Positions 56,600-61,541 are shown, counted from the first letter of the stretch. The stretch: DNA of 64,000 nucleotides from Candidatus Bipolaricaulis sibiricus (GCA_004102645.1 CP034928.1:1054001-1118000); one strand, 5' to 3'. Notes: generated from the letters alone by a model not told the origin. Numbers and translations: made by a program.

Positions 56600-57655
56600 A
56601 TGGACCTCGCGCATCTCGCGGCGCGTGTAGAGCGGGAGACCCGGATCGCGATCTCGCCGCGGGACATCGAGCGGATCTTGGTTGCCCTCCTCTCCACGGA
56701 GGACATGTGGCGGATCGCGGAGCTCGCACGGATCCCGCTCCTCGCCCTGTGCGCGGGCCTCCGGGCGCTCGCCGCCGAGGGATGGGTGAGATGGGACGTG
56801 GGCCTCGTCCGCTTGACCGACGCGGGGACCGAGCTCTGTGCGCGACGGGGCCTCTCTCCGGTCCCCGCCCTCGACTGCCCGCGGTGTGGGGGCCGGGGGA
56901 TCGAGCCCAGGCCCCTCGCTTCCCTCACCGAGGCGTTTCACCGCGTGGCGGCTGATCGGCCCGAGGCCGCTCAGGAGTTCGACCAGGGGTACGTGACCGA
57001 GGACACAACGATCGCCCGGGTCGCCCAGATGTGGCGCCACGGCGATCTGGCGGGGAAGGACCTCCTCGTCGTGGGGGACGACGACCTCGTCTCGGTCGCC
57101 GCCGCCTTGACGCGCCTCCCGCGGCGGGTGACAGTCCTCGACATCGACCCCCGAATCACGTCGTTCATCGCCCGGATCGCCAGAGAGGAGTCGCTCGCGA
57201 TCGATGTCCTGTCCCACGACCTTCGTCGCCCGCTTCCCCCTTCGCTTGCGCGCGCGTTCGACACGTTCGCCTGTGACCCCACCGAGAGCCTGGACGGGTT
57301 CCTCCTGTTTGCGGGCCGCGGGCTGACCGCGCTCCGCGGACGCGGTGGGGCGGGGTACCTCGGGCTCACCCACGCCGAGGCGTCGCTCGCCAAGTGGAGG
57401 GCGATCCAGGGGAGGATCGTGGCATGGGGGGCAGCGATCACCGACCTCCGCGATGGCTTCCACGCGTACGTGAACTGGCCGTATGTGGAGACGATGCGCG
57501 GTTGGGAACACCTTCCGGTGCGGCGAGTTCCGGGGCGGCTCGAACCGTGGTACCGGTCCGCTCTCGTTCGGGTTGAGCTCGTCACGGAGGCGACGGTCGA
57601 CCTGGGAACGATTGACGGAAACATCTTCCTCGACGACGAGGCGGCAACGACGTGA
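56600..57655 (+). CDS. bpsA: Branched-chain polyamine synthase (N4-bis(aminopropyl)spermidine synthase)
   Basis: 351 residues. An N-terminal winged-helix-like domain (1-95) and a CPRCGGRG zinc-type element (about 93-100) precede an aminopropyltransferase Rossmann domain with LLVVGDDDLVSVAAAL (the GDDD motif typical of BpsA) and FACDPTESLDGF, a variant of the usual DPPE-type motif. BpsA adds two aminopropyl groups from decarboxylated SAM to spermidine, making a quaternary or branched polyamine found in thermophiles. It sits with the genes supplying spermidine and decarboxylated SAM. ATG 56600 is 14 bp after the peptidase stop; a GTG 12 nt upstream is an alternative. Confidence 0.88.
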   Translation: MDLAHLAARVERETRIAISPRDIERILVALLSTEDMWRIAELARIPLLALCAGLRALAAEGWVRWDVGLVRLTDAGTELCARRGLSPVPALDCPRCGGRGIEPRPLASLTEAFHRVAADRPEAAQEFDQGYVTEDTTIARVAQMWRHGDLAGKDLLVVGDDDLVSVAAALTRLPRRVTVLDIDPRITSFIARIAREESLAIDVLSHDLRRPLPPSLARAFDTFACDPTESLDGFLLFAGRGLTALRGRGGAGYLGLTHAEASLAKWRAIQGRIVAWGAAITDLRDGFHAYVNWPYVETMRGWEHLPVRRVPGRLEPWYRSALVRVELVTEATVDLGTIDGNIFLDDEAATT

Positions 57656-57730
57656 GTGCGCACGGAGACGTTCGCCCCATCCTATCTGGATGCGGCGCGA
57701 GGCGCGCCAACCATGCGCCAGGCTTTGCCC

Positions 57731-57736
57731 TATAAT
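57731..57736 (+). promoter_or_regulatory. -10 box of pdaD
   Basis: Consensus TATAAT, 10 nt before ATG 57747, the same arrangement as at pheS and the phosphodiesterase gene. The -35 region is weak. It shows that pdaD-dhs can be transcribed separately from bpsA. Confidence 0.5.
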
Positions 57737-57746
57737 GCCCCCGAAA

Positions 57747-58352
57747 ATGGCACGACAGACAGGACAGACGAGAGGAAGAGCGGAACGCGAGCCGGGAATG
57801 GGGATGGTGCCCATCATCCCCCGCCGGGTGTTCTTCACACGGGGGGTGGGCCGCCACAAGGAGGAGCTCCGCTCGTTCGAGCTCGCCCTCCGCGACGCGG
57901 GGATCGAGAAGTTGAACCTGGTACACGTTTCGAGCATCTTGCCGCCGGCGTGCAAGGTCGTCTCGCGCACCGAGGGCCTGAAGTCCCTCGCGTCGGGTCA
58001 GGTGGTGTTCTGTGTGTTTTCGCGCTGTGCCTCGAACGAACCGCATCGGTTGATTGCGGCGTCGGTGGGATGCGCGATTCCCGCCGACCGCGAAGCCTAC
58101 GGCTACCTCTCCGAGTACACCTCGTTTGGGAAGAAGGAGAAGCAGGCCGGGGATCATGCCGAGGATCTCGCCGCCTCGATGCTCGCCTCGACGTTGGGAA
58201 TTGAGTTCGACGACGAGCTTGTGTGGGACGCGAAGAAGGAGATCTGGAAGATCTCCGGGAAGATCGTCCGCACGATGAACATCACCCAGTCGGCGGTCGT
58301 GGACAGCAAGGGGTACACGACGGTCATCGCCGCGGCTGTGTTCCTTCCGTAA
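57747..58352 (+). CDS. pdaD: Pyruvoyl-dependent arginine decarboxylase
   Basis: 201 residues from ATG 57747, or 184 from ATG 57798 where family conservation begins (VPIIPRRVFFTRGVGRHKEELRSFE). The self-cleavage site VSSILPP yields the pyruvoyl group on the second Ser; CASNEPHRLIAASVG and EDLAASMLAST are typical of the family. The enzyme makes agmatine from arginine. The longer start is favoured by the TATAAT box 10 nt upstream and lacks a ribosome site; the Arg-rich extra 17 residues are not conserved, so the start is open. Confidence 0.9.
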   Translation: MARQTGQTRGRAEREPGMGMVPIIPRRVFFTRGVGRHKEELRSFELALRDAGIEKLNLVHVSSILPPACKVVSRTEGLKSLASGQVVFCVFSRCASNEPHRLIAASVGCAIPADREAYGYLSEYTSFGKKEKQAGDHAEDLAASMLASTLGIEFDDELVWDAKKEIWKISGKIVRTMNITQSAVVDSKGYTTVIAAAVFLP

Positions 58353-58357
58353 CCGTG

Positions 58358-59401
58358 ATGAACGAACAGGACAAGCGTCGCTACTTGCGGGTGCCGGTTG
58401 TGCCCATCGACCCCACGGCGTTCAACACCGTTCCCCTCGTTGAGGCGATGGGGAAGACCGCGTTCCAGGCTCGAAACCTCGCTCGTGCGGCCGAGATCTA
58501 CAACGAGATGCTCGCCGATCGAGCGTGCACGATCATCCTCTGCCTCGCGGGGTCACTGGTCAGCGCAGGGTTGGGTCGGGCCATTGCGGTGCTCCTCGAG
58601 CATGGGATGGCCGATGCCGTGGTCGCCACCGGGGCGAACATCGTTGACCAGGACTTCTTCGAGGCCCTCGGGTTCCACCACTACGTGGGCAGTCCGGCCG
58701 TGGACGACAACGTCCTGCGCGAGCTCCACATCGACCGGATCTACGACACGTTCATCGACGAGGACGAACTGCGGATCTGCGACCACACGACAGCAGAGAT
58801 CGCCGATGGGCTTCCCCCGCGGCCGTACTCGTCGCGGGAGTTCATCCGCGAGATGGGACGGTGGCTCGTCGAGCGGGGGAAGGGCCACGGATCGATCACC
58901 CGTGTCGCCTACGAGAAGGGAATTCCCATCTTCTGCCCTGCGTTCTCCGACTCCAGCGCCGGGTTCGGCCTCGTCTACCACCAGTGGCAGAGGCCCGACC
59001 GGCACGTGGCAATCGACTCGGTGAAGGACTTCCTCGAGCTAACGAAGATCAAGATCGCCGCCCGGGAGACCGGCCTGGTGATGGTCGGGGGAGGCGTGCC
59101 GAAGAACTTCGCCCAGGACGTGGTGGTGGCCGCGGACGTGCTCGGCGTGGATGCCCCCATGCACCGGTACGCGATCCAGATCACGGTTGCCGATGAGCGG
59201 GACGGCGGTCTGTCGGGCTCGACCCTCAAGGAGGCGAGCTCGTGGGGCAAGGTGGCCCAGGGCCTCGAACAGATGGTGTTCGCCGAGGCAACGCTCGCCC
59301 TTCCCCTCCTCGTGAGCTACGTGTACCACAAGGGCGTGTGGCGAGAACGCGCCGCGAAGCGGTGGAGCGACGCGCTCGACGCCGCCCCGGTGAGGGCCTA
59401 G
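58358..59401 (+). CDS. Deoxyhypusine synthase-family protein
   Basis: 347 residues, full length for the family: TAFQARNLARAAEIYNEML, IILCLAGSLVSAGLG, FCPAFSDSSAGFG, VMVGGGVPKN and the active-site lysine in EASSWGKV (about 304). In archaea and eukaryotes this NAD-dependent enzyme moves an aminobutyl group from spermidine to eIF5A, but bacteria use EF-P and lack eIF5A. Bacterial homologues have been linked to homospermidine-type polyamine synthesis. Placement 5 nt after pdaD and before speD supports a polyamine product rather than protein modification. ATG 58358. Confidence 0.88.
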   Translation: MNEQDKRRYLRVPVVPIDPTAFNTVPLVEAMGKTAFQARNLARAAEIYNEMLADRACTIILCLAGSLVSAGLGRAIAVLLEHGMADAVVATGANIVDQDFFEALGFHHYVGSPAVDDNVLRELHIDRIYDTFIDEDELRICDHTTAEIADGLPPRPYSSREFIREMGRWLVERGKGHGSITRVAYEKGIPIFCPAFSDSSAGFGLVYHQWQRPDRHVAIDSVKDFLELTKIKIAARETGLVMVGGGVPKNFAQDVVVAADVLGVDAPMHRYAIQITVADERDGGLSGSTLKEASSWGKVAQGLEQMVFAEATLALPLLVSYVYHKGVWRERAAKRWSDALDAAPVRA

Positions 59402-59416
59402 GGCTCGTCCTCCCCG

Positions 59417-59445
59417 TTGGAACGGGCGGATCGCCCCACTACAAT
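59417..59445 (+). promoter_or_regulatory. Promoter of speD-speE-speB
   Basis: -35 TTGGAA (59417-59422), 17-bp spacer, -10 TACAAT (59440-59445), leaving a leader of about 67 nt before speD with GGTGAGGTGAG as ribosome site. Confidence 0.65.
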
Positions 59446-59450
59446 CCGCC
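59425..59450. repeat. Inverted repeat over the speD promoter (possible operator)
   Basis: GGCGGAT (59425-59431) and ATCCGCC (59444-59450) form a perfect 7-bp inverted repeat with 12 bp between. It covers the spacer and the -10 box, where a repressor would block polymerase. It could equally be an RNA hairpin only if transcription starts upstream. Confidence 0.4.
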
Positions 59451-59518
59451 ACGGAAGCCCGGGCTCCCGCCTCGATCCACACCGGAGGATCGCGGAGCCC
59501 CTGTCGGTGAGGTGAGTG

Positions 59519-59866
59519 ATGCGCGAACTGGGGAGGCAGCTCGTCGTCGAGTTGTGGGAGTGCGAGGGTAGCACAAACGATCCCGACGCCATCCGTCACG
59601 CGCTGGTTCGAGCGGTGGAGCAGTCCGGGGCAACGCTGATCGAGGCCCAGGTCCACCCGTTCAACCCCCATGGCGTGTCAGGGATGGCGCTGCTCGCTGA
59701 GTCTCACGTCTCGGTGCACACCTGGCCGGAGGTGGGGTACGTCGCCGTGGACGTGTTCACCTGTGGAGACGATGTGGCCCCGGAGAAGGCCGTCGAGGTC
59801 CTGTGCGACCTGTTCCGCCCCCGCCACACGAGCGTGGTCGAGATTCGACGAGGCGTCCGGCCGTGA
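59519..59866 (+). CDS. speD: S-adenosylmethionine decarboxylase proenzyme (class 1b)
   Basis: 115 residues, the short prokaryotic form. The self-cleavage site is at LAESHVSVHTWPE, giving a pyruvoyl group on Ser; VDVFTCGD holds the catalytic Cys. It makes decarboxylated SAM, the aminopropyl donor for SpeE and BpsA. A GTG directly before ATG 59519 is an alternative start. It overlaps speE as GTGA. Confidence 0.95.
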   Translation: MRELGRQLVVELWECEGSTNDPDAIRHALVRAVEQSGATLIEAQVHPFNPHGVSGMALLAESHVSVHTWPEVGYVAVDVFTCGDDVAPEKAVEVLCDLFRPRHTSVVEIRRGVRP

Positions 59867-60723
59867 CCGAAGGTTGGATCTGCGAAGAGCAATCCCCGGG
59901 AGTCCGATTGTGCCTGGAGGTGGAGGAGCCCCTCCTCCACCTGCGCACGACGTGCCAAGACCTTGCCCTCACCCGCACACGGGCGTTTGGGCGACTCCTC
60001 GCCCTCGACGGGCGGTACATGGTCACCGAACGCGACTGGCCCTTCTACCACGAGATGCTCGTCCATCCCGCCTTGCTCTCCCACGCGCGGCCGGAGCGGG
60101 TACTCGTCGTGGGCGGGGGCGACGGGGGCGCCGCGCGGTTGGCGCTCGAACACCCCTCGGTGTCCACGGTGACCCTGGTGGAGATCGACCCCGGGGTCAT
60201 CTCCGTGGCGCGGGCCCACCTCGCGTCCGTCCACGGTGGCGCCCTTGACGATCCCCGCCTCCAGGTCGTGATCGCGCCCGCCGAGGAGTTCGTGCCCGCG
60301 CGGACCCGGGAGTTCGATGCGATTCTCGTCGACTCCACGGATCCCGTCGGACCGGGGGAAGCGCTGTTTCGGCGCGCGTTCTGGACGGGGTGTGCCGCCG
60401 CTCTGCGGCCGGGGGGCATCCTCTCCCTCCAGGCCGGCGACCCGTTCTACCATCCCGAGGTCCTCGCCGGAGCGATGGCCGGCCTGCGGGAGGTCTTCCC
60501 CGTGGTCATCCCCCACCTCGGGTTCGTCCCCAGCTACCCGTCCGGCCTGTGGGCGTACGTCTTGGCCGGGGATCGCTCCCTCGATGTGAAGGAATCCGTA
60601 CTCGAGAAGAGGTTCCACAGCCGGCGGCTCACCACCCGGTACTACACCCCACAACTCCACCGGGCGGCGGCGGTCCTTCCCCGGTTCGTGGACGAGATTG
60701 TGCGAAGCGAGGAGGCACGATGA
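59863..60723 (+). CDS. speE: Spermidine-synthase-family aminopropyltransferase
   Basis: 286 residues. The dcSAM-binding motif VLVVGGGDGGAAR, VTLVEIDPGVI, the catalytic AILVDSTDPVGPGEALF and the gate-loop region QAGDPFYHPE are present. With PdaD and the SpeB homologue beside it, the likely acceptor is agmatine (giving N1-aminopropylagmatine, as in Thermus and Thermococcus) rather than putrescine, but the acceptor cannot be fixed by reading alone. The GTG start overlaps the speD stop and its stop overlaps speB. Confidence 0.92.
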   Translation: MTEGWICEEQSPGVRLCLEVEEPLLHLRTTCQDLALTRTRAFGRLLALDGRYMVTERDWPFYHEMLVHPALLSHARPERVLVVGGGDGGAARLALEHPSVSTVTLVEIDPGVISVARAHLASVHGGALDDPRLQVVIAPAEEFVPARTREFDAILVDSTDPVGPGEALFRRAFWTGCAAALRPGGILSLQAGDPFYHPEVLAGAMAGLREVFPVVIPHLGFVPSYPSGLWAYVLAGDRSLDVKESVLEKRFHSRRLTTRYYTPQLHRAAAVLPRFVDEIVRSEEAR

Positions 60724-61541
60724 TCGGACCCCTGCGGTTCCTCGGATTGGACACTCCGTTCGCGGAGGCACGGGTGGTGCTCCTGGGCGTTCCCCTCGAG
60801 CGCACCGTGTCCTACCGCGGCGGCCCCGCTCAGGCTCCGACCGCCATTCGGGCGGCGTCGGACTCGATCGAGCTCTACTCCCACTTGTTCCGGTGCGACC
60901 TGAGCCGCATCGGGATCTGCGACCTGGGGGATGTCGACCCCCACCTCTCCATGGCGGAGATGCTGCGCGCCACGGAACAGGAGGTGCGGCTTGCCCTCGA
61001 TGCGGGGAAGGGGGTCGTTGTGCTCGGGGGGGAGCACACTGTGGCGCTGCCGGCCGTCCGGGCCGCAGCTCAGCCGGGCCCCATCCAGGTCGTTGCTCTC
61101 GACGCCCACACCGACCTCCGCAGGACGTACGGAGGGGAGCAGGTGGCGCACGCGACCGTGCTGCGGAGGGTTAGCGAGCTGGCGGAACGCCTTGTCATCG
61201 TGGGGGCGCGTTCGTTCGTTGGAGATGAGGTGGACGAGCCGTTCTTCGCCCGGCCTGAGGACGTCGCGCGCCGCCTCGATCCAGGGGTCCCCGTTTGGCT
61301 GACCCTCGACCTCGATGCGGTCGATCCCTCGCTCTGTGCTGGCGTGACCAACCCCGAACCGGGCGGGCTCACCTACGCAGAGGTGATCGCGATCTTCCGC
61401 GATCTGGCACGGTTCAGGGTCGTGGGCATGGATCTTGTGGAGCTCGCCCCGCCGTTCGACCCGTCCGGGGTGTCGGCCGTTACCGCGGCCAAACTCGTGC
61501 TAGAGGCGATCGCCGCGTTCTGGGGTCCCGCGCCGAGATGA
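60720..61541 (+). CDS. speB: Agmatinase / aminopropylagmatine ureohydrolase
   Basis: 273-residue ureohydrolase with the dimanganese ligands in GGEHTVALP (His), VVALDAHTDLRR (DAHxD) and WLTLDLDAVDPS (DxD). It removes urea from agmatine or aminopropylagmatine. In this cluster the second is more likely, giving spermidine directly without putrescine. It starts at ATG 60720, overlapping the speE stop (ATGA), and ends the speD-speE-speB run. Confidence 0.92.
   Translation: MIGPLRFLGLDTPFAEARVVLLGVPLERTVSYRGGPAQAPTAIRAASDSIELYSHLFRCDLSRIGICDLGDVDPHLSMAEMLRATEQEVRLALDAGKGVVVLGGEHTVALPAVRAAAQPGPIQVVALDAHTDLRRTYGGEQVAHATVLRRVSELAERLVIVGARSFVGDEVDEPFFARPEDVARRLDPGVPVWLTLDLDAVDPSLCAGVTNPEPGGLTYAEVIAIFRDLARFRVVGMDLVELAPPFDPSGVSAVTAAKLVLEAIAAFWGPAPR

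Follow-up and report, generated by a model that had tools for sequence, protein, structure and literature searches.

What does a homologue of deoxyhypusine synthase (DHS) do in a bacterium, in the midst of genes for polyamine synthesis? The question is raised by the window, a stretch of 64,000 nucleotides from Candidatus Bipolaricaulis sibiricus (GCA_004102645.1 CP034928.1:1054001-1118000), in which six intact genes, bpsA, pdaD, the DHS homologue, speD, speE and speB, follow one another on the + strand from 56600 to 61541. We are highly confident that together they serve an agmatine-centred pathway of two branches, with the DHS homologue as a caldomycin synthase (CdmS).

The consecutive set that an earlier note had described from the sequence is all there: the six frames are open and pass their Pfam cut-offs (22-27 bits) widely, with 277, 201, 327, 131, 168 and 206 bits in order from bpsA to speB. 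The first gene, bpsA (56600..57655, +, 351 aa; PF01861, 277 bits), encodes a branched-chain polyamine synthase. It is followed by pdaD (57804..58352, +, 182 aa), with a possible alternative start at 57798, for a pyruvoyl-dependent arginine decarboxylase of the PRK12398 type (NF009064, 219.7 bits, cut-off 207), and by the DHS homologue (58358..59401, +, 347 aa), which is of the cdmS type. Next come speD (59519..59866, +, 115 aa; TIGR03330, 136.7 bits, cut-off 75.65), encoding S-adenosylmethionine decarboxylase, speE (59863..60723, +, 286 aa; NF002010, 299.4 bits, cut-off 260), encoding an aminopropyltransferase (spermidine / N1-aminopropylagmatine synthase), and speB (60720..61541, +, 273 aa; TIGR01230, 202.9 bits, cut-off 174.3), encoding an agmatinase-family ureohydrolase. 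Only 5 bp separate pdaD from the DHS gene, and speD–speE and speE–speB are joined by 4-base stop/start overlaps. A gap of about 145 bases lies upstream of pdaD and one of 117 bases upstream of speD, the latter with a predicted sigma-70-like site (TTGGAA-N17-TACAAT, 59417..59445, +; 9/12 in a consensus scan); two such sites were found in the 8.5 kb scanned, against 0.3 expected. These gaps and this site suggest that the six genes may be transcribed as two or three units. Upstream, the cluster is flanked by an M24 peptidase gene, also on the + strand, and by pheS, which runs the other way.

Another 18 genomes of Bipolaricaulota family f1 have the same gene order, each on a single contig, and the cluster genes are under purifying selection (dN/dS, window against genomes G013 and G005), which excludes chance as the source of the arrangement. 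Against either genome, pdaD has a ratio of about 0.03 and the DHS homologue one of 0.12. The latter value is lower than that of speE (about 0.20 and 0.28 against G013 and G005) and of the other cluster genes, with the exception of pdaD, speD and, in one of the two comparisons, speB. A remnant that had decayed or lost its activity and was held in place by linkage would not be expected to show such constraint, nor the invariant active-site residues described below; beyond the missing eIF5A substrate we found nothing in its favour, and we regard it as extremely improbable. Judged by its sequence, the pdaD–cdmS pair is functional and conserved.

NF002699 (caldomycin synthase) is the sole DHS-family model that the homologue passes, with 564.8 bits against a cut-off of 500; a Thermus homologue, run as a control, scored 545 bits. 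Five DHS equivalog models failed, with 321.8, 244.9, 240.4, 157.1 and 156.5 bits against cut-offs of 434, 304, 364, 380 and 350, respectively. CdmS was described in 2024 from Thermus thermophilus (TTHA1570) as an enzyme that couples two agmatines, and it shares just 27-33% identity with other DHS, HSS and SpeY enzymes (PMC10981699). With Thermus homologues the window protein shares 68-70% identity; its nearest named relatives, from Acetothermia/Candidatus Bipolaricaulota MAGs, are 77-85% identical.

The active site points the same way. Ser67, Glu136, Asp143, Phe204, Leu286, Glu293 and Lys299 of CdmS correspond to S66, E135, D142, F203, L285, E292 and K298 here, in a register taken from the Thermus relatives, which have the same letter at each of the seven positions. 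Lys298 is the catalytic Lys of the SWGK motif, retained as the earlier note had observed. Among 110 ORFs of CdmS type, a set that includes duplicate copies of one genome, six of the seven residues are invariant; the exception is Leu286, which varies in two. E135, D142, L285, E292 and K298 are common to a distant second DHS subtype, so that only S66 and F203 discriminate. By score and active-site residues, the DHS homologue is thus most likely of the CdmS type (PMC10981699), and not an orphan.

The DHS fold and the catalytic Lys would also suit a deoxyhypusine synthase in the strict sense, one that modifies a protein, be it EF-P or an unknown one. However, every DHS model stays below its cut-off, and Phe203 occupies the position of human DHS Asp243, a residue that lines the spermidine site. 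The expected substrate is missing too. No match to PF01287 or PF21485, the C-terminal and N-terminal models of eIF5A, was obtained in this 99.8% complete genome, as the earlier note had presumed; the N-terminal model gave matches in 4/4 archaea used as a control. EF-P was the only eIF5A relative found (L082, G000:C1:428049-428201, outside the window), and its tip, KLGRGGAF, has an Arg at what we take to be the position of the modified Lys in E. coli EF-P. With eIF5A not found and Arg at the EF-P tip, a known kind of DHS protein substrate is, as far as these searches indicate, absent from the genome. A protein-modifying role is accordingly given very little probability, and the "unknown target" once proposed is unlikely. 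An EF-P with Arg at the tip of domain I may itself undergo EarP-type rhamnosylation, or may carry no modification.

Another reading, which underlies the assay of the earlier note, is that the homologue is a homospermidine synthase of the SpeY type and takes putrescine as a substrate, paired with either putrescine or spermidine. DHS-like SpeY enzymes do form homospermidine in bacteria (PMC9992855, PMC10407285), and putrescine could come from agmatine via SpeB. Yet the protein reaches only 204.1 bits on the PRK00770 homospermidine model, whose cut-off is 450, against 565 bits and a cut-off of 500 for the caldomycin synthase model. The protein groups with Thermus homologues at 68-70% identity, and the characterised Thermus enzyme is inactive on this reading's substrates: purified T. 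thermophilus CdmS consumed agmatine only and left putrescine and spermidine untouched (PMC10981699). We therefore consider a SpeY-type activity quite unlikely. As a caldomycin synthase, the DHS homologue probably has agmatine as its substrate, the evidence for the agmatine specificity of CdmS coming from a single enzyme so far characterised and from a modelled complex. In T. thermophilus, deletion of CdmS gave a strain without homospermidine and homospermine, and TtSpeB converts caldomycin to homospermidine with high efficiency (PMC10981699). Because the Thermus enzyme consumed neither spermidine nor putrescine, the assay proposed in the earlier note (spermidine plus putrescine and NAD) would likely read negative and wrongly suggest an inactive enzyme.

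The rest of the genome provides what such an enzyme would need. The genome belongs to Ca. Bipolaricaulota and is a single contig of 1,701,655 bases, 99.83% complete. Its host is confirmed as bacterial, and the PheS encoded upstream of the cluster is of bacterial type by model scores. Family-model searches, on which all absence claims for the genome rest, returned no PLP-dependent arginine or ornithine decarboxylase of either fold (PF02784, PF01276), which answers the search for SpeA and ornithine decarboxylase that had been proposed. PdaD is the only agmatine-producing decarboxylase found with these and the PRK12398 models. It contains Ser43-Ser44 within HVSSILPP, presumably the self-cleavage site. 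DHS, SpeD, the arginase-family PF00491 protein (SpeB) and PRK12398-type PdaD are each present in one copy. An agmatine source and a ureohydrolase are thus found in the same genome, with pdaD adjoining the DHS gene and the single speB within the cluster. BpsA has N4-bis(aminopropyl)spermidine synthases as its best PDB matches, 6j28 (E 8e-93) and 5xnc, full-length with E values of 7e-82 to 8e-93, and keeps the catalytic GDDDL motif and an acidic C-terminal tail (FLDDEAATT); it is a member from a bacterial phylum that goes unnamed in a 2026 review. The best PDB match of SpeE is B. subtilis 1iy9. Since 17/18 bacterial spermidine synthases tested also aminopropylate agmatine (PMC11107197), spermidine is likely made here without putrescine. 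In the literature searched, we found nothing on the polyamines of Bipolaricaulota.

In the pathway that we propose, PdaD would convert arginine to agmatine, from which two branches would depart. In the first, SpeD would supply decarboxylated SAM, SpeE would put its aminopropyl group on agmatine, and SpeB would remove urea from the resulting aminopropylagmatine to leave spermidine, to which BpsA would add one or two aminopropyl groups, giving a branched polyamine. This is the agmatine/aminopropylagmatine route that the earlier note had predicted, and it is supported here. In the second, CdmS with NAD would oxidise one agmatine, hold its aminobutyl-guanidine part as an imine on Lys298 and pass it to a second agmatine, forming 1,9-bis(guanidino)-5-azanonane (caldomycin). 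The SpeB of the first branch would then remove both guanidino groups to leave homospermidine, and the idea of a free polyamine whose final form is homospermidine also holds up. We infer the substrate and product of the DHS homologue, as well as the sharing of SpeB, from the characterised Thermus enzymes.

The gene pair is one of two states of its slot in the cluster across the family. Within the frame pheS / M24-bpsA-...-speD-speE-speB, the slot between bpsA and speD in 40 family f1 genomes corresponds to PRK12398-type pdaD plus cdmS in 20, a short pdaD alone in 17, both in 1 and neither in 2 (G003 and G006). PRK12398-type pdaD and cdmS are found in exactly the same 21/40 genomes, and the short pdaD in 18/40. 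Genera g1, g4 and g6 carry the pair, and the other genera a single short pdaD of ~153 aa, which scores 133-140 bits on TIGR00286 (cut-off 107) and just 51-61 bits on PRK12398; its alignment with the window PdaD is poor. The only genome with both, G001, is a MAG in which the slot is occupied by the short pdaD and the pdaD–cdmS pair lies on another contig (L128, G001:C19), beside CorA-like and TrmH-like genes; this pair, to which we gave no weight, may be an intermediate state or lie on a mis-binned contig. The two slot states call for at least two changes on the PheS+M24 and five-gene trees, and a single change is not rejected (AU p 0.122).

The other families bear on which state may be the older one. 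In the 100 phylum genomes searched, PRK12398-type pdaD is also present in families f3, f4, f5 and f7, where its usual neighbour is speB and pheS is often close by; in the PdaD tree, the f1 copies fall together with those of these families (support 94/91, with several long branches). As it is widespread in other families and the f1 copies group there, the PRK12398-type decarboxylase may have been in the phylum for longer than the short pdaD, which would then be the later arrival. For the same reason, we gave up our first reading of the direction of the swap, in which a pdaD–cdmS cassette of foreign origin had taken the place of a resident pdaD. In a DHS tree of 93 sequences, all copies of family f1 fall in one clade next to Thermus, and the clade of f1 and Thermus falls within a large bacterial group that reaches DPANN archaea (L012, L060). 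The earlier note's "recruits" implies recent capture, which does not suit one old clade within the family f1 genomes. It is conceivable, if doubtful, that BpsA or SpeE, whose genes share a cluster and one SpeB with cdmS, also accepts homospermidine or the guanidino compounds that precede it, with branched or longer polyamines built on homospermidine, as yet undescribed in bacteria, as the products, and that the bpsA–speD slot is a lineage switch between spermidine only (short pdaD) and spermidine plus homospermidine (PRK12398-type pdaD with cdmS).

The second DHS subtype occurs in Bipolaricaulota families f3, f4 and f7 (L104-L111, L137, L146). It is very distant (~100 bits, on a long branch), carries A at position 66 and L at 203, and passes no NCBIfam cut-off, the closest being PRK00770 with at best 302 bits against 450 (L108). 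Given its score, its location away from spe genes and its different residues 66 and 203, we set this subtype (L104-L111) aside as evidence on the window gene. Families f4 and f7 also show bpsA directly adjoining speD (L137, L141-L143, L145, L146) and a separate speB–pdaD cluster, often with pheS (L162-L173). Two further arrangements were seen elsewhere. At L013, L023 and L063, cdmS-type genes come immediately after speB and a speD-like gene that is divergent (it scores 32-42 bits against the window SpeD); this resembles the SpeDA-SpeB-SpeY clusters (PMC10407285), whose "SpeY" may couple agmatine. At L012 (Micrarchaeota MAG) and L016 (Ca. Erginobacter), cdmS adjoins a PRK12398-type pdaD, with speB as well in L012, an independent instance of the pairing.

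What is new here is the setting, that is, the phylum, the complete cluster and the exact co-occurrence with one decarboxylase type; the enzyme type was already described. With this assignment, a puzzling DHS homologue from an uncultivated phylum of bacteria acquires a definite substrate that can be tested, agmatine, and the range of CdmS-type enzymes comes to include a cluster that unites decarboxylase, coupling enzyme and ureohydrolase. Co-occurrence of PRK12398-type pdaD and cdmS (21/40) could serve as a genomic marker for homospermidine production. In other phyla too, cdmS-type genes have speB and divergent genes resembling speD or pdaD as neighbours, so that some clustered "SpeY" may merit a test with agmatine.

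Comparison with known systems places the window protein closest to T. thermophilus CdmS, with which it shares the NCBIfam equivalog model and all named active-site residues, and SpeD, SpeE, SpeB and BpsA accompany it in Thermus as in the window genome. The settings differ: at the Thermus loci examined, no other polyamine gene of the window type lies ≤6 kb from cdmS, whereas here cdmS is inside a full cluster, and the agmatine source in Thermus is TtspeA (PMC10981699), whereas here cdmS is directly behind the gene for a pyruvoyl-dependent decarboxylase. The BpsA of the window shows no notable difference from those of Thermococcus kodakarensis and Thermus (5xnc, 6j28). With SpeY of cyanobacteria and others, the window protein shares the DHS fold and, by prediction, the NAD and Lys chemistry and homospermidine as end product, and SpeY genes, like the window gene, are often clustered with arginine decarboxylase and speB (PMC9992855, PMC10407285). 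Unlike SpeY, it fails the PRK00770 model; the reported SpeY substrate is putrescine, unlike that of CdmS, and the SpeY compared in PMC10981699 is ~30% identical to CdmS. It resembles eukaryotic and archaeal DHS (human 1rlz, Pyrococcus-type 7cmc) in fold, catalytic Lys and the Glu before SWGK, but differs in the lack of a protein substrate in the genome, the replacement of Asp243 by Phe and the failure at all DHS cut-offs. The saccharopine-dehydrogenase-like HSS, in contrast to the DHS fold of the window protein, has a different fold and no catalytic Lys.
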